From SAR116 cluster bacterium AG-447-C21 (lineage in GTDB: Bacteria > Pseudomonadota > Alphaproteobacteria > Thalassobaculales > Thalassobaculaceae): a stretch of 64,000 nt of DNA. The stretch is taken from assembly GCA_003212315.1 (NCBI GenBank), contig QCQB01000004.1, positions 62,001-126,000 on the forward strand, written 5' to 3'. Position numbers and translations under genes: made by a program. Below the pieces are notes generated by a model. It saw only the letters and a list, made by a program, of their open reading frames with translations. It had not been told where the DNA came from and did not search any database. Below are positions 41,898-53,627 of the stretch, piece by piece (within the stretch, counting starts at the first letter, position 1; each line of letters opens with the position of its first letter).

Positions 41898-42749
41898 TTA
41901 GTGGAGCTTAGACCCCTCTATTGTAATTCGATGCATAAGTCGTTTTTCTCCATGGTAGTCATTAATGGCAAAATGCCACGTAGCCCTATTATCCCAAAAA
42001 GCGATTGAACCGGGCTTCCAATCAAACCTGCACGTAAACTCTGGGCGAGTAGCATGAGCATAAAGATATTCTAACAATGGTTGTGACTCGGCATCAGTCC
42101 ATCCCTCAAAACCCAGAGTGAACCCTGGGTTTACATATAGTGCCTTACGCCCCGTCTCTGGATGCGTGATGACTACTGGATGAACCGCATCTTGATTTGC
42201 AGCCTCCGCATTTTTTATCCTACCTACTGTATCGTCTTCTTTCTCTGCCCTGGAGGGACCAAACACATGTCGGCTCGAGTGTCTAGCAGACATACCTTCT
42301 AGTGTTCCCTTTAAACCATCGGATAAAGTTTCGTAGGCGGAGTACATACTAGCAAATACCGTATCGCCTCCACTTTTTGGGACTTCGTGTGCGAATAAAA
42401 TCGATCCTAAAGCAGGTTCTGTGTCATATGAATGATCTGTATGCCAGTTACCGCCTATATTCTTTTTTTGATTCGGCTCTTTTAAGACCATTGCTATCTC
42501 TGGGTAGTCATCTACTTTGGTAAAGAACCGATTGATATTTATTTCCCCCCACCGTCTAGCAAATGTTATTTCTTGCTCCGGTGTTAATTTTTGATCTCTG
42601 AAAAATATCACACCATATTCCCCAAAAGCCGATTTTATCTCCGAAAATTGTTCTTCGGGTATATTATCTTTAAGGTCTACACCGTGTATCTCAGCACCAA
42701 CAGCGCCCGAAATTGGCTTTATATCTAATAAACCAGAGGATAGTTTCAT
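41898..42749 (-). CDS. TauD/TfdA-family dioxygenase (third of three)
   Basis: 283 residues from ATG 42749 (AAGGTG six bases upstream); the longer frame begins with GTG 42758. His103 and Asp105 are in GNWHTDHSYD, His259 in WDNRATWHFAIND, and the 2-oxoglutarate Arg in EKRLMHRITIEG. It is the copy most like classical TauD/alkylsulfatase proteins. It is divergent from a two-gene SDR operon, with an inverted repeat and a palindrome in the shared upstream region. The substrate is unknown. Confidence 0.9.
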   Translation of the reverse strand: MKLSSGLLDIKPISGAVGAEIHGVDLKDNIPEEQFSEIKSAFGEYGVIFFRDQKLTPEQEITFARRWGEININRFFTKVDDYPEIAMVLKEPNQKKNIGGNWHTDHSYDTEPALGSILFAHEVPKSGGDTVFASMYSAYETLSDGLKGTLEGMSARHSSRHVFGPSRAEKEDDTVGRIKNAEAANQDAVHPVVITHPETGRKALYVNPGFTLGFEGWTDAESQPLLEYLYAHATRPEFTCRFDWKPGSIAFWDNRATWHFAINDYHGEKRLMHRITIEGSKLH

Positions 42750-42788
42750 AACGAACACCTTATCAAAAATTCACTGTAGTCAAAGTAT

Positions 42789-42868
42789 AAATATCGCAAA
42801 AATAACTAAGAAGGTCTAATAACTTTTGCATGTTGGTAATAGGGTATGTGATACTTATTGCGATATTT
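42789..42868. promoter_or_regulatory. 11-base inverted repeats and a palindrome between divergent dioxygenase and SDR genes
   Basis: AAATATCGCAA at 42789-42799 and TTGCGATATTT at 42858-42868 are perfect inverted copies 58 bases apart (69 bases centre to centre). Between them, GTAT-GTG-ATAC at 42844-42854 is a short palindrome of the type bound by GntR-family regulators. The region is the shared 130-base control region of two divergent genes. No regulator gene is adjacent. Confidence 0.45.
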
Positions 42869-42885
42869 TAATGGAGGAGTTTTAG

Positions 42886-43650
42886 ATGTCATTATTCGAT
42901 TTAAATGGTCGCGTGGCCATTATCACTGGTGGCAATGGGGGAATAGGTCTAGGAATGGCTTTGGGGCTGGCCAGTTCCGGCGCTTCTATAGCTATTGTGG
43001 GAAGAAATTCTGAGAAGAATAAAACTGCTTCTAAAAAATTAGAGGCAACAGGCGCAAATGTGATTGCGATCGAAAAGGACGTCACAAATGACTTGGCCGG
43101 TACCGAAGTCGCAACGGAAGTTCAAAATAAGTTTGGGCGTATAGATATACTAATCAATAACGCCGGGTCCAATATCCGAAAACGCCCAGAAGATTTATCC
43201 TTAGAAGAATTCAGATGGGTGCAGGATACTAATTTAACAAGCGCCTTTGTATTTAGCCAAGCCATGTATCCACATTTTAAGAAAGTGGGTGGCGGAAAAA
43301 TTATCAATATTGGTTCCATGTATTCTTTATTTGGTGGGCCAGTCTCAACAGCATATTCGGTAAGTAAGGGCGGAATAGTGCAGATGACTAAATCAATGGC
43401 GGCTGCTTGGGCAACCGATAAGATACAAGTAAATGCTGTGCTTCCCGGTTGGATAGATACCGAACTCACGCGCACAGCTAGGGAACAAATTGATGGACTT
43501 TATGAAAAGCAGTTGGCGCGCATCCCTGATGGGCGTTGGGGAACGCCGGAGGACCATGCCGGGATAGCTGTCTTTTTAGCAAGCAATGCTTCGAACTATA
43601 TTACCGGGGCAGCAATACCTGTTGATGGTGGGTTCTCAATATCAGGTTGA
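42886..43650 (+). CDS. Short-chain dehydrogenase
   Basis: 254 residues. TGGNGGIG (14-21), NNAG (91-94), Ser144, Tyr157, Lys161 (TAYSVSK): complete catalytic set. The C-terminal DGRWGTPEDHAGIAVFLAS is typical of 2-deoxy-D-gluconate and gluconate dehydrogenase-like enzymes. The ribosome site AGGAG lies six bases ahead of ATG. It is first of a two-gene operon with another SDR, 65 bases downstream. Confidence 0.92.
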   Translation: MSLFDLNGRVAIITGGNGGIGLGMALGLASSGASIAIVGRNSEKNKTASKKLEATGANVIAIEKDVTNDLAGTEVATEVQNKFGRIDILINNAGSNIRKRPEDLSLEEFRWVQDTNLTSAFVFSQAMYPHFKKVGGGKIINIGSMYSLFGGPVSTAYSVSKGGIVQMTKSMAAAWATDKIQVNAVLPGWIDTELTRTAREQIDGLYEKQLARIPDGRWGTPEDHAGIAVFLASNASNYITGAAIPVDGGFSISG

Positions 43651-43715
43651 GTTATTAAAAAGAATAATAATTCAATATCAATTGGCAGTTTAAAGAAGTG
43701 ATAGGGGATATTTAG

Positions 43716-44474
43716 ATGACTAAAACTGATAAAATAGCAATTGTCACAGGGGCAGGGTCTGGTGTGGGAAAAGCCTCATCCGTAGCACTAGCTGCAGAGG
43801 GGTGGACATTAATATTAGCGGGGAGAAGACCAGAACCACTGAATGAAGTCTCTTCCGAAATCGAAGCTTTTGGGGGAAAGGCAATCGCTATACCTACCAA
43901 TGTCGGTGACCCGGTATCGGTCCAAGAACTATTTAAGACAACACATAGTAGATATGGACGTCTGGACCTATTATTCAACAATGCTGGAACAAATGCGCCT
44001 GGAGTGTCTCTAGAAGAGCTAACTTATGAGCAATGGATAGACGTAGTGAGTATCAACTTGACAGGGGTATTCTTGTGCACGCAAGAAGCCTTCAACATCA
44101 TGAAAAGTCAGTCTCCTATGGGAGGTAGAATAATAAACAATGGTTCAGTCTCCGCTCACGTTCCACGACCGGGTTCTGCCCCATATACAGCAACTAAACA
44201 TGCCGTGACGGGACTAACGCGTTCCACTTCGTTAGACGGAAGGAAGTACAATATTGCATGCGGGCAAATAGATATTGGAAATGCGCTAACTGAAATGGCC
44301 GCGCGCATGACGAAGGGTGTACCTCAAGCTAACGGAAGCACAGAAATTGAACCGGTAATGGATGTATCAAATGTTGCGCAAACAATTGTCCACATGTCGA
44401 GTTTACCCGCTGATGCCAATGTTCAGTTTGTAACAGTCATGGCCACAAAAATGCCCTTCATTGGAAGAGGTTAG
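43716..44474 (+). CDS. Short-chain dehydrogenase
   Basis: 252 residues. TGAGSGVG (11-18), NNAG (88-91), Ser144, Tyr157, Lys161 (APYTATK). The C-terminus ([17 protein letters not shown]) matches a common subgroup with a conserved 'ATKMPF' end. Preceded by AGGGGA. It is the second gene of the SDR pair. The two may carry out successive oxidation steps on the product of the divergent dioxygenase; this is inference. Confidence 0.92.
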
Positions 44475-44532
44475 AAGAGCATAATTGAAAATTGCACGTT
44501 TGTTTAAATTCTAGCATGATATTACGATCTAG

Positions 44533-45756
44533 TTACTTTGGCCCATTAGTATTTAGATTAAATAATTTCGCGGCATTCAAGCCCAAAATGTTTCGTTTTG
44601 ATTGCTCATCTAAGAATGGTAGATCGTAAATAACACTTGGTGTATCAAAATCAAAATGTGGCCAATCGGAAGAAAAAAGTAATTGATCCTTCGCATTAAT
44701 CATTTCAAACGTACATTCCAAAGCTTTCATATTACTTTGTTCCATTGGTTGACAGGAATAAAAGCAATTATCCGACATATACTCACTAGGCATACGCCGC
44801 AGTAGTGGAGCCTCCGACTGCCGCATCAGATATTGATCATCTAACCTTTGCATTAAAAATGGAATCCAAGACAAACCGCTCTCAACCCACATAGATTTTA
44901 ATTTTGGAAATCGCTCGGGGATTCCGTTTAATATCCAGTTAGTCATATGCACGATATTGCACCAAGCAAATCCCAGAGAATGCATTCCCAGAAATGTATT
45001 ACAAGTTGCTAGGGAGGGGTCTTGCCAATGGTAGCCTGCATGAAAAGCAATTGGTTTTCCGCTTTCTTCTATTGCCCTGTACAATTTCATATATTCGTTA
45101 GAATGGACCGGTTTATACCTAGTAGATGTTACGCAAAACCCTATCACATTGGGAACGTCAGCGAACTCCTCAACCATTTTCAACGCTTCATCAGGTGTAT
45201 TAAACGGTAAAACCACAAGTGTCACCATTCCCGGATCGCCGGGTAGAACCCTCTCGGTTAGCCAACGGTTGTAAGCACGCGACAAAAAAACTTCCATATC
45301 TGTCTGTGGATGCATTCCCAGAAATAACATCGGCGTTGGGAAAATGACCATATAGTCCACTGCCAATCCATGCATTGCACGACGCGTAAGAACTACGTCT
45401 CGATGCACGTCTTTCTCTTCGACTACTTCACGTTGGCTGGACTGGTGCGGTATTCGACCACCAACATCTTGATATCGGAGGCCTAAATCTCCGTTTAATC
45501 CATAAGGGGGAGCTCCGACTCTCTCCGACTGATACATTTCCGCTTGATGACGGACCACTGGATCTTCAATGTAGGATGTTATTTCGGCCCAGCTGACGCT
45601 CTCTACGTGATGCGCATCAATATCAACGATGAGCCAATCCGCAAATCCTTTCTTTTCTGCGTCATTTCGGGCATGTGCCAAATAATCTCGCGTATCCGTT
45701 CGTGTATCAAGTTCCTGAACCGGATGCTCAATCGCGGGCTTAATCAAAGCGTCCAT
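44533..45756 (-). CDS. Amidohydrolase (ACMSD-type, metal-dependent hydrolase/decarboxylase)
   Basis: 407 residues in the amidohydrolase_2 family. The first metal motif is DIDAHHVES (Asp47, His49, His50), then AFHAGYHWQ (second His pair), a Glu/Trp-rich WVESGLSWIPFLMQRLD segment, and SSDWPHFDFD with the final Asp. Family members decarboxylate aromatic or picolinic acids or hydrolyse C-C or C-N bonds. It is followed upstream (towards higher coordinates, same strand) by a small protein, a Rieske ferredoxin and a DHA2 transporter, forming one apparent operon. The substrate is unknown. Confidence 0.9.
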   Translation of the reverse strand: MDALIKPAIEHPVQELDTRTDTRDYLAHARNDAEKKGFADWLIVDIDAHHVESVSWAEITSYIEDPVVRHQAEMYQSERVGAPPYGLNGDLGLRYQDVGGRIPHQSSQREVVEEKDVHRDVVLTRRAMHGLAVDYMVIFPTPMLFLGMHPQTDMEVFLSRAYNRWLTERVLPGDPGMVTLVVLPFNTPDEALKMVEEFADVPNVIGFCVTSTRYKPVHSNEYMKLYRAIEESGKPIAFHAGYHWQDPSLATCNTFLGMHSLGFAWCNIVHMTNWILNGIPERFPKLKSMWVESGLSWIPFLMQRLDDQYLMRQSEAPLLRRMPSEYMSDNCFYSCQPMEQSNMKALECTFEMINAKDQLLFSSDWPHFDFDTPSVIYDLPFLDEQSKRNILGLNAAKLFNLNTNGPK

Positions 45757-45780
45757 TTACAATTTCCCTCTTATCATCGA

Positions 45781-46194
45781 CTATTCTATAGTATTCTCAT
45801 TAGGATTTATTTCAAAATCAGTATCATGATAATCCTCAGGGCGTCGTCTAGACCAAAGGCCAAATTCCATCGGCCCAAGCCGCAGGGCCCTAAGTACTTC
45901 TGTAACAGCTGTTAAAGCCTCTGTAGGTGTTACAATTTCATCATATTTACCTAGAACTGGCCTGAAAGTTCTCCCTTCGCCATCCGTTTTAGCTGCATAC
46001 AGCTTAAGAGCCGTTGTCATTAATTTTGCGACTGTATCATCCGAAATCCTAGCCACTTCATTCTTTTCTATCGCTAATTCAGTTCTCTCCCATAACGTGT
46101 CCGCAACATTTTCAAATATAGCATATGGGTCATTTTCCTTGCTAGTTTCCCTAATACCCGTAAGCTCAGGATTTTTATTCTCCAACGATGACAT
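45781..46194 (-). CDS. Hypothetical 137-aa protein in the Rieske/amidohydrolase operon
   Basis: Start at ATG 46194 with GGAGG eight bases upstream, lying inside the end of the Rieske gene (20-base overlap), so the two are tightly coupled. The longer frame from 46212 is rejected. The protein is helical (AIFENVADTLWERTELAIEK), contains SDDTVAKLMTTALKLYAAKT and TPTEALTAVTEVLRALRLG, then an acidic tail. It has no Cys cluster. It may be an accessory or small subunit for the Rieske-dependent or amidohydrolase enzyme; I do not recognise the family. Confidence 0.75.
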   Translation of the reverse strand: MSSLENKNPELTGIRETSKENDPYAIFENVADTLWERTELAIEKNEVARISDDTVAKLMTTALKLYAAKTDGEGRTFRPVLGKYDEIVTPTEALTAVTEVLRALRLGPMEFGLWSRRRPEDYHDTDFEINPNENTIE

Positions 46195-46546
46195 AAATCT
46201 CGCCTCCTTCAATTTGAACCGGTAAGGGATCTAGAGCTATCTCCTCATTCCCTGGATGCTTTCCCGTTCTCACATCAAATTCAAGACCGTGCCATGGGCA
46301 AACAATGTTTATATTATTTTCATCATATAAACGACCATGACTGTGTTTGTTTTCATCTAGGTTTTCGTGAACGCGCGGATATAACCTTCCTTGACAGACA
46401 GGTCCTCCTTGGTGTGGACAAATATTGTTCCAGGCATAGAATTTTTCTCCCAGTCGAAAGACGCCTACCTCAGTCTCCCCAAGATTAAAGACCTTCTTGG
46501 TTCCCTCTTCAAATTCACTTACAGTTCCAATGCGATAAGACTGCAT
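46175..46546 (-). CDS. Rieske [2Fe-2S] ferredoxin-type protein
   Basis: 123 residues from ATG 46546 (AGGGGTG upstream). The [2Fe-2S] ligands are Cys-x-His in CPHQGGPVC and Cys-x-x-His in CPWHGLEFD, a complete Rieske site in a single-domain soluble protein of the NirD/ferredoxin type. An unusual insertion (about 24 residues with Glu/Lys/His, between the two ligand pairs) makes it longer than a minimal Rieske ferredoxin. It would pass electrons to an oxygenase. It is in an operon with the 137-aa protein and the amidohydrolase. Confidence 0.9.
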   Translation of the reverse strand: MQSYRIGTVSEFEEGTKKVFNLGETEVGVFRLGEKFYAWNNICPHQGGPVCQGRLYPRVHENLDENKHSHGRLYDENNINIVCPWHGLEFDVRTGKHPGNEEIALDPLPVQIEGGEIYVIVGE

Positions 46547-46582
46547 GATTAACACCCCTGATTTTTTTTATATTCTAATACC

Positions 46583-48079
46583 TTATTTCTTCACAGTCAC
46601 TAATGAGAGCACTGGCAAAGCTATTAAGCAGGTGAGTGCATAAAAATAAAATATATTATCATAACCAATCATGGAAGATTGCCTAGTCACCTCGGAAACT
46701 AAATTCACCAAACTATCTGTCCAATCATGGTCCCCATCACCTACAACATTTGGAAACCTCAATCTCTCTTCGTAGGGAGTTATACTTTCCATCAACTCAG
46801 AATAACTAATTTTGGATGTCCTTATCAACAGAGTAACACTTATCGCTACAAACACACTTGTGCCAAGGTTTCTTAACAAATGGAAAAATGCTGAGGCTGT
46901 CGGGAAAAGATAATCTGGGATGGTTGAAAAAGTGATAACCGCTAATGGAACCCATAAAATACCACAACCAAAACCCTGGAGGCCACTCGCCCAAGAAACG
47001 GCTGAAAAGCTGACATTGAGATCATATAAGCTCATCAACCAACCACTTAGACCAATACAGGCCATGCCTATCACCATACCAACGCGGGGATCGAAACGCC
47101 CCATTCTAGCTGCAATAAAAAAACCAAGTATCATGCCAACTCCACGCATCGCCAAAATCCAGCCAATCAACAGATCTGGATAACCCTGCAAGTTCTGTAA
47201 CATTGACGGCAAAAGAACCAGAGGCGTGAAATTTAGAGAACCGTAGACAAATACTAAAATGACCCCAAGAACATAATTACGATTCAGAAATATCCTAGGG
47301 TCAATATATGGTTGTCTTGTAAACATCGTATTTGTTACAAACATATAAAATGCAACTGCCATGAAAGTTACAAGACTGATTATGTAAATCGACTCCATCC
47401 AGTCTTCTCGCTCGCCACGATCCAAAATTAATTGCAGGCAAACAATGGCAATAGAAAAAAGAGTAAACCCTAGATAATCAAATTTGTAATTATTTTCCCT
47501 ACCTGCATCTTTCACATACCTCATATTTCCCAAAATGGAAAAAATACCAATTGGGACCATCATAAAGAAAACCCATCTCCAATCATAAACTTCAGATAAA
47601 TACCCCCCCAACGACGGTGCTATTGCTGGCCCTACAACTACAGCCATACCATAAATACCATTTACTTTAGCATGCATGTCTCGGGGGTAGCTCTGTAACA
47701 ATGTCGACTGAGATAACGGCACTAATGGCGCGCCTGCTGCCCCTTGAAGAACTCGAAGAAATATTAATGACTCCAGAGAATTGGCAAAACCACAAGCTAA
47801 CGTTGCAATAGTAAAACTTGCGCTGCAAAAGATTAAAACAGCTCGTCTGCCAAAGATTGCAACCATTGACCCCGTGAGCGGAGTAGCTATAGCCGTTGCC
47901 AGAACATTAAGTGTAATTACCCAGGAAATTTGGTCTTGGCTCGCAGATAGTGCGCCCTGCAATTGCGGCAAGATGATATTCACCATTGTCATAGTCAGCG
48001 AGTAGAGCATCGTTGTACCTGCCATTGTTATCAACAGCAGCAGTCGATAACCTGGACTGGTTTCCATCGTCACTGACAT
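46583..48079 (-). CDS. DHA2-family MFS transporter (14 TM)
   Basis: 498 residues with about 14 membrane helices. The family motifs are LYSLTMTMVNIILPQLQGAL at the start (DHA2 motif), AIFGRRAVLIFC (loop 2-3 motif), LQGAAGAPLVPLSQSTLLQ (motif C-like) and RWVFFMMVPIG. It probably exports or imports drugs or small organics with H+. AGGA precedes ATG 48079. It is the first gene of the minus-strand unit with the Rieske protein and amidohydrolase, and is divergent from another MFS gene. Confidence 0.92.
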   Translation of the reverse strand: MSVTMETSPGYRLLLLITMAGTTMLYSLTMTMVNIILPQLQGALSASQDQISWVITLNVLATAIATPLTGSMVAIFGRRAVLIFCSASFTIATLACGFANSLESLIFLRVLQGAAGAPLVPLSQSTLLQSYPRDMHAKVNGIYGMAVVVGPAIAPSLGGYLSEVYDWRWVFFMMVPIGIFSILGNMRYVKDAGRENNYKFDYLGFTLFSIAIVCLQLILDRGEREDWMESIYIISLVTFMAVAFYMFVTNTMFTRQPYIDPRIFLNRNYVLGVILVFVYGSLNFTPLVLLPSMLQNLQGYPDLLIGWILAMRGVGMILGFFIAARMGRFDPRVGMVIGMACIGLSGWLMSLYDLNVSFSAVSWASGLQGFGCGILWVPLAVITFSTIPDYLFPTASAFFHLLRNLGTSVFVAISVTLLIRTSKISYSELMESITPYEERLRFPNVVGDGDHDWTDSLVNLVSEVTRQSSMIGYDNIFYFYALTCLIALPVLSLVTVKK

Positions 48080-48158
48080 TAAATTCCTACAGCCCTAAAG
48101 GGATCCAACTATTAAGACAAAATTAAAATACGGCCCAAAGTAATAAGCACCAATCATT

Positions 48159-48203
48159 ACCCTATATGGGTCTTCATATAATTTTTAATAATGTATGCAT
48201 ACA
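48159..48203. promoter_or_regulatory. Two palindromes between divergent MFS genes
   Basis: ACCC-TATAT-GGGT (48159-48171) and TGTATGCATACA (48192-48203, a perfect 12-base palindrome) lie in the 198-base region between two transporter genes transcribed away from each other. TGTATGCATACA resembles GntR/FadR-type operators. No regulator is adjacent. Confidence 0.4.
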
Positions 48204-48277
48204 AAATATAGCTATTATCGTAATCTCGATGTAATACCAACTGCCGATTTCAATTCTTTCAATGAAATAACTCAAAT

Positions 48278-49468
48278 ATGACTTTTGAACGCAATGTTCT
48301 GATCTGGATGTGCGTGCTGATTTTCGCAAACCAGCTTGGGTTTGGGGCGATGGTGCCATCCCTACCGTTATATGCAGAAACGTTTGGCGTTTCCGGGGCA
48401 GCGATTGGTTTAGCAATAGGCGTTTATGGCTTGGCAAGATTTGTCCTTGCTATACCCTCCGGCCAAATTTCGGATAAATGGGGAAGGAAGCCAGCGTTAG
48501 CAATTGGGGGATTTCTATCCACAGCCGGAAACTTATTGAGTGTTTACGCTACTGATTATCCAGAATTTTTGATAGCACGATTTATTGCTGGCGCCGGTGC
48601 GGGAATGGTGGTCACAACAGGATCTGTAATTTTAGCTGATATCACAACACCTGCTCGACGAGGTCGAGTAATCGCTATATATCAAGGAACCTTCATTTTT
48701 GCGGTTGGGATAGGACCGCTGCCAGGAGGTCTCCTTGCTCAAAACTTTGGATTACTCGCACCGTTCTGGTTTTGCGCATTCGCCAGTTTCATAGCAGGTT
48801 CAATAGCTCTTTTCAGTGTCAAGGAAACGCGCCATTTGGCTAGGCAAAAAGAGATTAAAGGCACAGTTTTACCCTCCTTAGCAGATCAGTTAAAGATATT
48901 ATCCAAAAATATAGGGTTCGTACTTGTAAGTGGAATAGCACTTTCACATGCTCTAACAAGAACAGGTGGTTTATTCAATATCATTCCTATTATAGGCAGT
49001 TTTCGAATACAACTCGCATACGATGAAATTGGGGTCGCGTTAGCCATTGGCAGTTTACTGGGTCTTTGCGCTGTATATCCGGCTGGTGTTGCAGTAGATC
49101 GTTGGGGCAGGAAAGCGATAATTGTCCCTTTTACGTTTGTGACTGGAATTTCATTTTTACTTTTCGCAGTGGCTGAAACGTTTTTCTGGTTCGCGTTTGC
49201 CAACGCATTGTGGGGCATTGCCTCAGGAATTGGTGGCTCAGCACCAGCAGCCTACGCCGCGGACTCGGCGCCGCCGGGGATGAACGCGTCAGCGATGAGT
49301 TTATTCCGCATGTTAGGTGATATTGGTTACGTTGTTGGTCCAATATTGCTGGGATTTATTGTCGATATTCATGGGACCAATGTGGCACTTTATATGGCGG
49401 CTTCTATTCTATTTATCATAGGCACTTTATTCGCAAGATTTGCTCCGGAGTCATACAAACCAGATTGA
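48278..49468 (+). CDS. MFS transporter (12 TM)
   Basis: 396 residues with about 12 membrane helices. QLGFGAMVPSLPLYAETFG, then SGQISDKWGRKPALAIGG is the conserved MFS loop 2-3 motif, and GTFIFAVGIGPLPGGLLAQ is motif C. This is a DHA1-like proton-coupled transporter. It is divergent from the DHA2 gene and 90 bases upstream of the altronate-dehydratase-like gene, so it may import that enzyme's substrate. The substrate is unknown. Confidence 0.92.
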   Translation: MTFERNVLIWMCVLIFANQLGFGAMVPSLPLYAETFGVSGAAIGLAIGVYGLARFVLAIPSGQISDKWGRKPALAIGGFLSTAGNLLSVYATDYPEFLIARFIAGAGAGMVVTTGSVILADITTPARRGRVIAIYQGTFIFAVGIGPLPGGLLAQNFGLLAPFWFCAFASFIAGSIALFSVKETRHLARQKEIKGTVLPSLADQLKILSKNIGFVLVSGIALSHALTRTGGLFNIIPIIGSFRIQLAYDEIGVALAIGSLLGLCAVYPAGVAVDRWGRKAIIVPFTFVTGISFLLFAVAETFFWFAFANALWGIASGIGGSAPAAYAADSAPPGMNASAMSLFRMLGDIGYVVGPILLGFIVDIHGTNVALYMAASILFIIGTLFARFAPESYKPD

Positions 49469-49560
49469 AGCGAACAAAGCGGCTTTGAAAAATTTATATG
49501 TAAAATAGAATAAAGCAGTTAAAACCTCCGTATTATATATTTAAAAATGGGGGAATTAAC

Positions 49561-51108
49561 GTGTTGAATCTTGACGATAAAAATACGACTGGGCCAGCAA
49601 TTCGATTGAACTCTGCAGATAATGTGTCGATTGCTTTGAGTGAAATAAGTTCAGGAACGACACTTCCAGATACTAATATCGTAACACGCGAAATAATTCC
49701 ACCGGGGTATAAAATAGCTATTGACGATATCCCAAAAGGTGATCCCATAAAAAAATATAATGTCACGATTGGTTTTGCAAAAAATGATATCTTAGCTGGG
49801 ACAATGCTGCATAATCATAACATTGAATTTAAAGAGTTTGATCGCGATTATGCTTATACCAAAGAATTCAAACCATTAGAGTTACTTCCAGAAAACCATC
49901 GAGCCACATTCGAAGGCTTTTTAAGATCGAATGGTACTGCGGGAACGCGCAACTTCATCGCAATCGTCTCTACAGTTAATTGTTCAGCAACTGTCGTTCA
50001 TGCAATAGCAGATCATTTTACAAAAGAACGTATGGCAGAATACCCCAATGTGGATGGTGTGGCGGCCTTCAGCCACCATACTGGTTGTGGCATGGAGTTG
50101 ACAGGCGAACCAATGGACTTACTCCATAGAACTCTTGCCGGATATATCAGGCATCCCAATGTAGCGTCCAGTTTAGTCGTTGGTTTAGGATGCGAACGAT
50201 GCCAAGTAGGTGGTCTTTTTGAATCTGAGAAACTCACTCCCGGGCCTAATTTGAGAACGCTTGTAATGCAAGAGTCGGGAGGAACTAGGCAGACCATTTC
50301 TGATGGCATTGCTGTTGTTGAAGAATTATTAAAAGAAGCAAATAAGTGTAGCCGGCAAACACTCCCTGCGAGCCATATTATGGTCGGATTGCAATGCGGT
50401 GGTTCAGATAGCTTCTCCTCTATTACAGCTAACCCTGCCCTCGGCAAAGCGGTCGATATTCTCTCAAAACATGGGGGGACTGGAATACTCTCAGAAACAC
50501 CAGAGATATATGGCGTTGAACACACTTTAACAGCGAGAGCAGCCTCAGTTGAAATTGGACAAAAATTAATTGAGCGGATTCGTTGGTGGAAAGATGAATA
50601 CGCGGTTGGTCGCGATGTACAGATCAACGGAACCGTAAGCCCTGGCAATCAACAAGGAGGGCTAGCAAATATTCTGGAAAAGTCCCTTGGATCTTCTATG
50701 AAAGGCGGCACTGGCCCGCTGATGGAAGTCTATAAATATGGAGAACCAGTGAAAACCCATGGCTTTGTTTTTATGGATTCTCCAGGATTCGATCCTGTTT
50801 CTGCTACGGGACAGATAGCTGGTGGTGCAAATATGATCGCGTTTACCACGGGCCGCGGATCATGTTTTGGCGCAAAGCCGAGTCCTTCAATAAAACTCGC
50901 AACGAATACACCGATGTTTAAAAGATTAGAGGAGGACATGGATATAAACTGTGGAGCATTACTGGATGGCGAGGTTGATATGGAAGCCATGGGCCAACGA
51001 ATATTCGAATATTTTCTTTATGTAGCCTCAGGCGGAAAAACCAAGAGTGAGAAACTCGATTTAGGTAGACATGAATTTATTCCGTGGAATATTGGTATAA
51101 CTGGTTAG
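49561..51108 (+). CDS. UxaA-family hydro-lyase (altronate/galactarate dehydratase-like)
   Basis: 515 residues, GTG start at 49561 with GGGGAA upstream. The N-terminal SAF-type domain (about 15-85, AIDDIPKGDPIKKYNVTIG, GTMLHNHNIEF) is followed by the catalytic part: GTAGTRNFIAIVSTVNCS, HTGCGMELTGEP, GCERCQVGGLF, LQCGGSDSFSSITANPALG and GRGSCFGAKPSPSIKLATN, as in altronate dehydratase. The His and Cys in the first blocks bind the metal. It would dehydrate a sugar acid to a 2-keto-3-deoxy acid. It follows the MFS transporter on the same strand. Confidence 0.9.
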   Translation: MLNLDDKNTTGPAIRLNSADNVSIALSEISSGTTLPDTNIVTREIIPPGYKIAIDDIPKGDPIKKYNVTIGFAKNDILAGTMLHNHNIEFKEFDRDYAYTKEFKPLELLPENHRATFEGFLRSNGTAGTRNFIAIVSTVNCSATVVHAIADHFTKERMAEYPNVDGVAAFSHHTGCGMELTGEPMDLLHRTLAGYIRHPNVASSLVVGLGCERCQVGGLFESEKLTPGPNLRTLVMQESGGTRQTISDGIAVVEELLKEANKCSRQTLPASHIMVGLQCGGSDSFSSITANPALGKAVDILSKHGGTGILSETPEIYGVEHTLTARAASVEIGQKLIERIRWWKDEYAVGRDVQINGTVSPGNQQGGLANILEKSLGSSMKGGTGPLMEVYKYGEPVKTHGFVFMDSPGFDPVSATGQIAGGANMIAFTTGRGSCFGAKPSPSIKLATNTPMFKRLEEDMDINCGALLDGEVDMEAMGQRIFEYFLYVASGGKTKSEKLDLGRHEFIPWNIGITG

Positions 51109-51133
51109 CATCACTATAAATATATCCTGTTCG

Positions 51134-51149
51134 ATGGTGCGGCACCCAT
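51134..51149. terminator. Weak hairpin between convergent genes
   Basis: ATG-GTG and CAC-C-CAT with a three-base loop form a short stem with one bulge, followed by TTTAATTCTATAG. It lies between the convergent UxaA-like and dimethylglycine-dehydrogenase-like genes. The T-run is poor, so this is only a possible terminator. Confidence 0.25.
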
Positions 51150-51155
51150 TTAATT

Positions 51156-53627
51156 CTATAGTTTCACTCTTTCATTCAGTGGATCGTAGAATGGGCGAAT
51201 ACTCACCTCAGCTTTAACTCGTGTCCCGGCAATATCAATTTCATAATCGGAATTCATTAGTTGCTCAACAGTTTCTCCCCTCTGACACGGTACATAACCT
51301 AGACCCACCGACGCTCCAAGGTAATGTCCAAATCCACCTGAGGTAATTCGACCAACCAATGTTCCATCTCGATAAATAGTTTCATTGTGGTAAAGTAGAG
51401 GCATGCTATCACGCAGTTTAAATTGTAGTAATCGTCTTTCGAGGCCCCTATCTTTTTTAGCTAAAACTGCATCCCGTCCAATAAAGTGTCCAAATTTATC
51501 TATTGGCTTATTCAATTTGACACAAAACCCTAAGCCAGCCTCTAATACATGATCCTCATCTGTTATATCGTGACCAAAATGACGATATGCCTTTTCCAGC
51601 CTGCAGGAATCAAGAACATGCATGCCGCATAATTGAAGGCCTTTGTCACTACCATTTTGAATAATAGTATCAAAAACGTGTTTTGCCATGTCTGTGGGGA
51701 TATATAATTCCCATCCTAATTCACCAACGTAGCTAATTCGATGAGCTCTTGCTAAACCCATCCCTATCTCTATTTCTTTGGCAGTTCCAAATGGGAATTT
51801 TTCATTAGATAATTCTTCGGGCGTAATGGCCTCTAAAAGACTCCGAGATTTTGGTCCCATTAAAGAGAATACAGCCTCTGCACTGGTAATATCTGTAACA
51901 ATACAATGAGCTTCATCTGGGATGTTGCGTTTGATCCACGATAAGTCTCTGACAGCCGAGGTTGCCGCTGTAACCACAACAAACGAAGTTTCCGAAAGCC
52001 TTGTTACTGTCAAATCAGCTTCTATACATCCGGATTCGTTAAGCCATTGGCCATAAACTATTTTGCCGACATCTACAGCAATATCGTTTGCCATAATTCT
52101 TTGTAAAACAGCTTCTGCGTCCCTTCCCTCAACTCGAAATTTGGCAAAAGAAGTTAAATCGAAAAAGCCAACTCCTGTTCTAATGGCCAAATGCTCTTTT
52201 GCAGCATATTCAAACCAGTTTTGTCTTTGCCAAGAATATTGGTATTCTGCTTTTTTTCCGTCCTTGATGTCTTTTACAGGCAAGAACCAATTTGGTCTTT
52301 CCCAGCCCGCTGTCTCACCAAAACATGCGCCAAACTTCAGAAGATCATCATGGATCGGGCTTTTCCTTATTCCCCGAGCAGATGCATATTGCCTATAAGG
52401 AAAGTGATCTGCGTAGAGCAGTCCAAGTGTTTCTTTTGAACGGTGATAAAGATAGGTTTTATTAGCCTGGAACTGTTGCATCCGGCGAATATCTACATCC
52501 CATAAATCGAACGGTGGCTCTCCGGCATCCATCCACTCTGATAAAGCTTTTCCTGCTCCACCGGCAGATTGAATTCCGATAGAGTTAAACCCACAAGCCA
52601 TATAAAAGTTTTTTAGATTTGGTGCCTCCCCAAGCAAATATCTATCATCGGGGGTAAAACTCTCTGGGCCATTGAAAAATAGCTGTATTCCCGCTTTTTC
52701 TAAAAGTGGCATGCGTCGCACAGCAGCATCTAGAATTGGTGAAAAATGTTCAATATCTTCTGGTAATTGGTCAAAACAAAAGTCATCTGGAATTCCATCC
52801 ATGCCCCATGGCTTTGCCTTTAATTCAAATGCTCCAATTAATAATTTACCCGCATCTTCTTTATAATAGGTTGCTTCGTCAGGGACCCTTAAGACAGGGA
52901 GATTTGGTTGCAACTCAGGAATGGGTTCCGTCACAATATAGAAATGTTCACTTGCATGAAGTGGAATATTGACATTGGCCATACGCCCGATTTCACGGCC
53001 CCACATCCCGGCACAATTAACTACATAATCCGCTGCTATTGTGCCTTTGTTAGTCTCTACACCTGTTGCATATCCTTTAGCCTGAGTAACTCCGACCACT
53101 TTAACATCTTCATAGATCTCGGCGCCGTTTTGGCGAGCTCCTTTAGCTAAGGCTAGGGCAATATTTGTTGGATCGGCTTGTCCATCACTTGGAAGAAAAA
53201 GGCCTCCAACAGAATCAGAAATATTTAAAAGAGGATAACGAGCTTGGACTTCATCACAGGATAAAATATCAGCTTCAATACCACAATTTTTTGCCATCAC
53301 GGCACCACGTGAAAATTCCTCCATACGCTCCGAGGTGATAGCCAGAGAGAGAGACCCGTTCCTCTTGTATCCTGTAGCGATCCCTGTTTCTGCCTCTAAT
53401 TCATTGTACAAGTCGGTCGAATAAATTGCTAATTTAGTCATATTGTAGGTAGCTCTTAGTTGCCCTATCAAACCTGCGGCATGCCAAGTGGTACCACTTG
53501 TTAATTGTTTTCTTTCCAGAAGGACAACGTTTTTCCAACCTAATTTTGTTAGATGATAAGCGACAGAACACCCTATGACACCACCACCAACTATCACTAC
53601 TCGAGCTTGACTTGGGAAATCAGCCAT
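51156..53627 (-). CDS. GcvT-family FAD protein (dimethylglycine/sarcosine dehydrogenase-like)
   Basis: 823 residues. The FAD-binding domain starts VVIVGGGVIGCSVAYHL; His49 in TTWHAAGLIG is the position that carries covalent FAD in dimethylglycine dehydrogenases. The C-terminal half (about 425-823) is a GcvT/aminomethyltransferase folate-binding domain (FDLTSFAKFRVEGRDAE, VGELGWELYIPTDMA, ITDEDHVLEAGLGF). Such enzymes demethylate dimethylglycine, sarcosine or related methylamines and pass the C1 unit to tetrahydrofolate. Length agrees with the family (about 810-830). Confidence 0.93.
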   Translation of the reverse strand: MADFPSQARVVIVGGGVIGCSVAYHLTKLGWKNVVLLERKQLTSGTTWHAAGLIGQLRATYNMTKLAIYSTDLYNELEAETGIATGYKRNGSLSLAITSERMEEFSRGAVMAKNCGIEADILSCDEVQARYPLLNISDSVGGLFLPSDGQADPTNIALALAKGARQNGAEIYEDVKVVGVTQAKGYATGVETNKGTIAADYVVNCAGMWGREIGRMANVNIPLHASEHFYIVTEPIPELQPNLPVLRVPDEATYYKEDAGKLLIGAFELKAKPWGMDGIPDDFCFDQLPEDIEHFSPILDAAVRRMPLLEKAGIQLFFNGPESFTPDDRYLLGEAPNLKNFYMACGFNSIGIQSAGGAGKALSEWMDAGEPPFDLWDVDIRRMQQFQANKTYLYHRSKETLGLLYADHFPYRQYASARGIRKSPIHDDLLKFGACFGETAGWERPNWFLPVKDIKDGKKAEYQYSWQRQNWFEYAAKEHLAIRTGVGFFDLTSFAKFRVEGRDAEAVLQRIMANDIAVDVGKIVYGQWLNESGCIEADLTVTRLSETSFVVVTAATSAVRDLSWIKRNIPDEAHCIVTDITSAEAVFSLMGPKSRSLLEAITPEELSNEKFPFGTAKEIEIGMGLARAHRISYVGELGWELYIPTDMAKHVFDTIIQNGSDKGLQLCGMHVLDSCRLEKAYRHFGHDITDEDHVLEAGLGFCVKLNKPIDKFGHFIGRDAVLAKKDRGLERRLLQFKLRDSMPLLYHNETIYRDGTLVGRITSGGFGHYLGASVGLGYVPCQRGETVEQLMNSDYEIDIAGTRVKAEVSIRPFYDPLNERVKL

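Follow-up and report, generated by a model that had tools for sequence, protein, structure and literature searches.

In the SAR116 cluster bacterium AG-447-C21, the adjacent genes for a small Rieske ferredoxin, a 137-aa protein (p137) and an amidohydrolase-fold protein quite probably encode a multicomponent monooxygenase of the kind formed by amidohydrolase-related dinuclear oxygenases (AROs), with p137 as the third component in this clade. The gene set is maintained beyond chance: the trio was found in 20 out of 20 related loci in a first scan, and p137 is under purifying selection (dN 0.13 and dS 1.46 in comparison with locus L004). An earlier sequence-only reading of the same DNA had proposed a coupled set whose small protein may belong to a new enzyme, and this part of the interpretation stands, p137 being probably part of an enzyme other than the usual Rieske dioxygenase.

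Gene layout and co-occurrence

The window, i.e., the whole stretch of 64,000 nucleotides that was analyzed, contains all four genes on the minus strand, with the following features:

46583..48079, minus strand: DHA2/EmrB-type MFS transporter, 498 aa (TIGR00711 EmrB/DHA2)
46175..46546, minus strand: Rieske [2Fe-2S] ferredoxin, 123 aa from ATG (PF00355), proposed electron donor
46289..46420, minus strand: Rieske cluster motif C43-x-H45-x37-C83-x2-H86, with a spacer exceeding the Pfam model
46175..46194, minus strand: overlap of the Rieske and p137 genes, exactly 20 nt, indicative of translational coupling
45781..46194, minus strand: p137, small helical protein of an unnamed family, 137 aa, proposed third hydroxylase component
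44533..45756, minus strand: ARO-type hydroxylase (PF04909 Amidohydro_2, "amidohydrolase"), 407 aa, candidate catalytic subunit
45619..45756, minus strand: N-terminal arm of the hydroxylase (residues 1-46, preceding the DxH motif), confined to the p137 clade in the alignment rows compared
45610..45618, minus strand: metal-ligand motif D47-x-H49, equivalent to AibH2 D25/H27 by the DxH motif
45040..45042, minus strand: metal ligand H239, aligned with AibH2 H211
44881..44883, minus strand: metal ligand E292, aligned with AibH2 E265
44650..44667, minus strand: D364-x2-H367-x-D369 motif, aligned with AibH2 D337, H340 and D342

The genes and their 20-nt overlap are as the sequence-only reading had described them. 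The p137 gene has a ribosome site (GGAGG) 8 nt upstream and is separated from the amidohydrolase gene by 24 nt. In relatives, the Rieske and p137 genes overlap by 4 to 20 nt in 17 of the 19 cases measured, with a 2-nt gap in the remaining 2. Promoter and terminator scans gave counts within the range of shuffled sequences. The DHA2 transporter, which the earlier reading had counted as a member of the set, is probably on the same transcript but is a lineage-specific neighbor; its gene is found at the same place in just 6 of the 20 related loci (4 of these loci have a contig end no more than 0.9 kb upstream) and hence is not core. The sets have genes for transporters and small-molecule enzymes around them, but the flanking genes vary among species and name no substrate.

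In whole-genome scans, all 19 p137 places have an adjoining Rieske gene, and 18 of them an ARO gene as well (the Rieske gene of locus L093 was found by a six-frame scan); p137 is thus not a protein that occurs mostly without the other two, the outcome that the earlier reading had set against its own proposal. On plasmids, an ARO gene lies, by coordinates, within about 0.2 kb in all 24 records with a p137 match. The order of the genes is variable (Rieske-p137-ARO, ARO-Rieske-p137, Rieske-ARO-p137 and ARO-p137-Rieske), which argues for linkage by function. Phylogenetically, the p137-linked AROs form one clade (support 100/99), in which 18 of 23 AROs adjoin both p137 and a Rieske gene and four are solo, with p137 encoded elsewhere in the genome; all 11 genomes with a clade ARO hold p137 and Rieske genes. 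Mirror-tree correlations over 11 rows, too few and too closely related to be decisive, are 0.79 for p137-Rieske, 0.76 for Rieske-hydroxylase and 0.64 for p137-hydroxylase. The AG-447-C21 genome additionally has, on contig C9, an AibH1H2-Rieske set of the classic kind that lacks p137.

Gene linkage would be equally expected if p137 were a dedicated chaperone that served the assembly, metallation or stability of the hydroxylase but had no role during turnover, and the solo clade AROs would fit such a factor acting in trans. Nevertheless, we consider this explanation unlikely. The tightest link of p137 is to the Rieske gene (19/19 places), which it often overlaps, and the Rieske spacing, CxH-x37-CxxH, is fixed in 31 out of 31 p137 systems. 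Together, this linkage and the fixed spacing fit an electron-transfer part better than a pure metal chaperone.

The proposed hydroxylase and its likely electron supply

No Rieske-domain oxygenase alpha subunit is encoded in the operon, and the Rieske protein, with its 123 aa, has no catalytic domain. However, the conclusion of the sequence-only reading that an oxygenase subunit is absent is probably wrong, because the amidohydrolase is probably itself a member of the AROs (AibH2, SfbO and PtmU3), as judged from its sequence, its fold and its metal ligands. In PDB, the five proteins that match it best in sequence are all AROs, namely 8sm7, AibH2 (6m1w_B), 8sm9, SfbO (8sm6) and 8sm8, with E-values of 2e-36 for 8sm7 and 1.5e-29 for AibH2, compared to 3e-8 for the best decarboxylase; the nearest characterized ARO is ~26% identical. 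Similarly, the best 20 of 845 matches in the fold search are all ARO entries, AibH1 chains among them, with the underlying model (pLDDT 61, and <50 in the ligand-bearing segment 293-372) used for fold alone. The protein has the complete AibH2 set of six metal-coordinating residues and the second-sphere acidic residue D369, and these seven residues are conserved throughout 32 of the 33 clade rows, the remaining row being cut by a frameshift. The PF04909 TIM-barrel protein, nearer to AibH2/SfbO than to mononuclear members, shares a transcription unit with a small Rieske protein, as their adjacent or overlapping genes on one strand indicate.

An ordinary mononuclear PF04909 decarboxylase or hydrolase, with the Rieske protein serving a Rieske oxygenase elsewhere, appears very improbable. 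PF04909 does hold many such enzymes, and decarboxylases occur lower in both the sequence and fold match lists, but the best matches are all AROs, the Rieske and amidohydrolase genes remain paired across loci and in haloarchaea, and D369, at a position where, according to PMC7782822, binuclear members alone keep an acidic residue, is present in every readable clade row. Accordingly, the earlier claim that the partner of the Rieske protein must lie elsewhere finds no support, the adjoining ARO-type amidohydrolase being its likely recipient.

Small Rieske partners are regarded as the reductants of AROs (PMC10811679, PMC10401708), and the Rieske protein of the window is likely the electron donor of the hydroxylase. 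There is no reductase gene in the operon; contig C92 carries the only PF14759-type reductase that was found in this genome, which makes it the foremost candidate for reducing the ferredoxin. The N-terminal arm of the hydroxylase measures 42 to 47 residues in 21 out of 21 clade rows, compared to a segment of 6 to 23 residues in 8 of the 9 rows outside the clade (1 was not measurable).

p137 and its possible role

p137 has no match in Pfam, NCBIfam or PDB, including profile searches against PDB and Pfam, and its predicted structure (21 alignment rows, pLDDT 62) is all-helical, with no fold match. HTH_62 (PF20552), which we take to be a neighbor of Rieske genes, was rejected as an identity for p137: the Pfam model gave no match, HTH_62 proteins look different, and a Rieske gene lies close by in just 1 of the 10 HTH_62 loci checked. 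Close relatives of p137 share a very conserved C-terminal block (LGPMEFGLWSRRRPEDYH), the RRRPEDY tail of which is gone in diverged members; in the latter, the only invariant residues are T91 and W114, with K69 and R117 close to invariant. MNIO enzymes, which have a TIM-barrel fold, act on peptides together with partner proteins, and the small size and conserved C-terminal block of p137 could recall a protein substrate, or substrate carrier, oxidized by the ARO, but the loss of the tail and the small-molecule surroundings of the sets make this reading hardly credible.

In the monooxygenase that we favor, the amidohydrolase-fold protein would bind a dinuclear Mn/Fe or Fe/Fe center through D47, H49, H239, E292, D364 and H367, with D369 in the second sphere, and the Rieske ferredoxin would carry electrons to it from a ferredoxin reductase whose gene lies outside the operon. 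The reduced center would activate O2 and hydroxylate or dealkylate a small molecule. Most likely, p137 would bind the hydroxylase, with the clade-specific N-terminal arm as a conceivable docking site, and keep it in a productive complex with the long-loop ferredoxin, a supporting role that may be likened to that of the noncatalytic AibH1 subunit in AibH1H2. According to PMC10811679, AROs such as SfbO turn over without any small partner if given ascorbate, so p137 may be dispensable in vitro.

More tentatively, p137 might found a new family of obligate partners for amidohydrolase-fold Mn/Fe oxygenases, docking on the N-terminal arm and controlling electron entry from the long-loop Rieske ferredoxin, as an independent evolutionary counterpart of the soluble methane monooxygenase effector proteins, although this remains a rather doubtful possibility.

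Related systems and significance

As described in the parts of PMC7782822 and PMC10401708 covered here, the 2-aminoisobutyrate monooxygenase of Rhodococcus wratislaviensis, AibH1H2-AibG-AibF, shares with the window a PF04909-fold hydroxylase with an equal ligand set and spacing, an adjoining small Rieske ferredoxin and a permease in the cluster, but has a second, noncatalytic amidohydrolase subunit and a reductase gene, with no p137-like gene listed. The window set consists of a single hydroxylase with an N-terminal arm, p137 and the ferredoxin; no second AibH1-like subunit, i.e., one without a D342 equivalent, adjoins it, so an AibH1H2-type heteromer was not found there. The Rieske spacing also differs, x32 in the AibG-like sets seen versus x37 in the window. 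The AROs of Liu et al. 2024, including SfbO (PMC10811679; PDB 8SM6-8SM9), are likewise single amidohydrolase-fold oxygenases encoded next to a small Rieske protein and include the nearest solved relatives of the window hydroxylase (8sm7 and 8sm6), at 20-26% identity, but the main text mentions no third small protein; nor is p137 mentioned in the main text of PMC10401708. The group nearest to the p137 clade in the tree comprises haloarchaeal pairs (Halostagnicola and Haloarcula) with the same ligands, a Rieske spacing of x36/x37 and overlapping ARO and Rieske genes, but without p137 or the N-terminal arm.

The coupling or effector proteins of soluble diiron monooxygenases (MMOB and TmoD) are small, cofactor-less and encoded beside the hydroxylase, ferredoxin and reductase. 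Identity of p137 with such a coupling protein is unsupported by sequence or fold match: no sequence match to MMOB or TmoD was found, and its low-confidence model is all-helical, whereas these proteins are alpha/beta.

AROs are a young enzyme class, for which 555 uncharacterized members are postulated (PMC10401708); apart from the Rieske donor and permeases, few genes are known to co-occur with them. The present clade, in which a third protein is conserved, the hydroxylase has an N-terminal arm and the ferredoxin loop is fixed, provides a concrete starting point for understanding how AROs are reduced and controlled. In addition, a set that would probably be annotated as a hydrolase, a stray Rieske protein and a hypothetical protein could be a C-H oxidizing enzyme in marine bacteria.

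Gene set of the window and probable identity of the amidohydrolase

The four genes recognized by the sequence-only reading were all recovered at their places on the minus strand.

46583-48079, minus strand: EmrB/DHA2 transporter (TIGR00711, 332 bits; cut-off 230)
46175-46546, minus strand: Rieske protein (PF00355, 53 bits)
45781-46194, minus strand: 137-aa protein, p137
44533-45756, minus strand: amidohydrolase (Amidohydro_2, PF04909, 80 bits)

The 20-nt overlap of the Rieske and p137 genes likewise stands, and a good ribosome site for p137 (ggagg, 8 nt before the ATG) lies within the 3' end of the Rieske gene. p137 has no family in Pfam or NCBIfam (top Pfam score 14.3 bits versus a cut-off of 31.4). 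The dN and dS values of 0.132 and 1.458 against its relative at locus L004, and of 0.032 and 0.211 against that at L002, indicate that it evolves as a protein.

PF04909 proteins adjoining small Rieske proteins are described, in the portions of the reports consulted, as dinuclear Fe2 or Mn/Fe monooxygenases of the amidohydrolase-related dinuclear oxygenase (ARO) class (PMC10811679, PMC10401708; AibH1H2, PMC7782822). The top five PDB matches of the window amidohydrolase are the four ARO structures of PMC10811679 and AibH2 (E 2e-36 to 6e-23), followed by AibH1, PtmU3 (2e-9) and 5-carboxyvanillate decarboxylase (3e-8). A profile of the p137-linked hydroxylases is led by the same four structures and AibH2, with AibH1 next; the decarboxylase (46.0 bits) and PtmU3 (45.3 bits) then score nearly equally. 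With an AlphaFold model of the hydroxylase, whose pLDDT is only 61, the top 20 Foldseek matches are exclusively chains of ARO entries, AibH1 included. Residues H239, E292, D364, H367 and D369 align with AibH2 H211, E265, D337, H340 and D342; D47/H49 correspond to AibH2 D25/H27 by the DxH motif. All seven positions are conserved in 35 of the 37 amidohydrolases compared, the exceptions being a frameshifted gene (L072) and an AibH1-like protein on contig C9 of the same genome, with Q at the D342 site. Collectively, the PDB matches, fold matches and conserved ligands speak against the earlier view that no oxygenase large subunit is present: the missing component is very probably the amidohydrolase itself.

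Linkage of p137 to Rieske and ARO genes

A scan of genome contigs found p137 relatives (55-93% identity) encoded at 20 loci, all in the order Rieske-p137-amidohydrolase, with one Rieske gene cut by a contig end. In whole-genome scans, alignment profile A1 matched in 3 of 398 genomes sampled from the phylum and in 14 of 385 sampled from the class; a wider profile, A4, matched in 3 of 349 from the phylum. The three samples share genomes. Every match falls in the class of the window. Combined, these scans yield 19 distinct places, including that of the window, of which at least two may recur among the first 20 loci, their contigs being equal in length to contigs of that set. The coupling proposed from the window was sustained: the Rieske gene adjoins p137 in 19/19 places and the ARO gene in 18/19, and in the exceptional genome (G408) the ARO gene shares the contig at a distance of 5.8 kb. 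The order is Rieske-p137-ARO at 15 places and ARO-Rieske-p137 at 3.

On plasmids, the window p137 matched 14 records, with weak scores (E 0.04-0.06) in six; a Phaeobacter p137 added 10, and that of L041 retrieved 6 already among the 14. By coordinates, an ARO match lies about 0.2 kb or less from p137 in all 24 records, among which the neighbourhoods inspected were L022-L025, L101 and L102. A search starting from the hydroxylase gave 24 places in 11 of 289 genomes. Of the 23 exceeding 400 bits, 18 have p137 no more than 1.5 kb away, two of these 18 being extra copies alongside a first one; the other five comprise the G408 place and four solitary genes. p137 and Rieske genes are present somewhere in each of the 11 genomes. 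At L066/L069, L074/L078 and L076/L079, two full-length AROs with all ligands flank one Rieske-p137 pair. Two trios that are otherwise intact, L072 (G489:C14) and L102 (Neorhizobium galegae pNgVX), have a hydroxylase gene that looks frameshifted or split.

Partners within the system

In a tree of 47 hydroxylases, with L072 left out, 30 rows with an adjoining p137 and 8 solitary or second copies form a single group on a long stem (support 100/99). The nine rows without p137 fall outside, the haloarchaeal ones nearest, with a program warning of long branches among these outside rows. An arm of 42-47 residues with a conserved (T/S)xxxLxxA-like pattern precedes the DxH motif in 21/21 clade rows checked; outside rows have 6-23 residues there in 8 of 9, the ninth being unmeasurable. 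We infer that this arm is most likely the docking site of p137.

The window Rieske protein is a 123-aa ferredoxin with the motif CxH-x37-CxxH. Its Pfam match spans 94 residues against 73 model positions, and hence the motif halves are separated by some 20 residues more than in the model; PDB ferredoxins align to only one half at a time. The x37 spacing recurs in 31/31 p137 systems examined. Of two haloarchaeal ARO pairs, one shows x36 and the other x37; five further ARO-linked partners, which resemble AibG, the Rieske ferredoxin of AibH1H2, have x32. Across all sets examined, ARO-linked Rieske ferredoxins carry 32-37 residues between the halves, more than the Pfam model, and this stretch is possibly a diagnostic docking loop.

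The same genome holds a second ARO locus.

4427-7047 of L089, contig C9: a pair of amidohydrolase genes with a Rieske gene; no p137

One of these amidohydrolases keeps D at the D342 site and the other has Q, a classic AibH1H2-AibG layout; the set adjoins an adenosine-deaminase-family gene. No mononuclear AibH1-like partner was seen in the p137 clade, and it is plausible that p137 assumes a supporting role of AibH1, the non-catalytic subunit. However, SfbO works without either AibH1 or p137, which speaks against a simple replacement. In the parts of PMC12141560 consulted, AibH1 is auxiliary and AibH2 homologues sometimes lack it. The main texts of PMC7782822, PMC10811679 and PMC10401708, as far as consulted, are silent on any third small protein, and no publication on one was found in the ARO, AibH1H2, AibH2, PtmU3 and SfbO literature, judged mainly by titles and abstract openings.

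Candidate electron source and genomic neighbourhood

The window operon contains no reductase gene. A single ferredoxin reductase of the PF14759 family is encoded in the genome (83% complete), on contig C92 (L090). The sole PF00175 match of the genome (L091) has neighbours that, by eye in the ORF list, resemble an Na+-NQR operon. At L012, the opposite strand encodes a PF14759 reductase 3.8 kb upstream of the trio. We infer the link between reductase and trio.

Around the trio lies a ten-gene neighbourhood.

41898-53627: TauD-like dioxygenase, two SDRs, trio, DHA2, MFS, GarD-like dehydratase and DMGDH-like protein

Its order is conserved in SAR116-type relatives (L004, L009, L010), up to the contig ends in L002 and L003, and partly in L006. 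In the other loci, some of them short, DHA2, second MFS, GarD-, DMGDH-, SDR- and TauD-type genes were not found beside the trio, and at L011 the place upstream of the Rieske gene is taken by an EamA transporter. On Aminobacter niigataensis plasmid p2 (L024), the p137-type set sits within a cluster of CHA-aldolase, RraA-like and 4-hydroxybenzoate 3-monooxygenase genes, which hints at aromatic catabolism at that locus. For the window, the neighbouring genes suggest a role in small-molecule catabolism.
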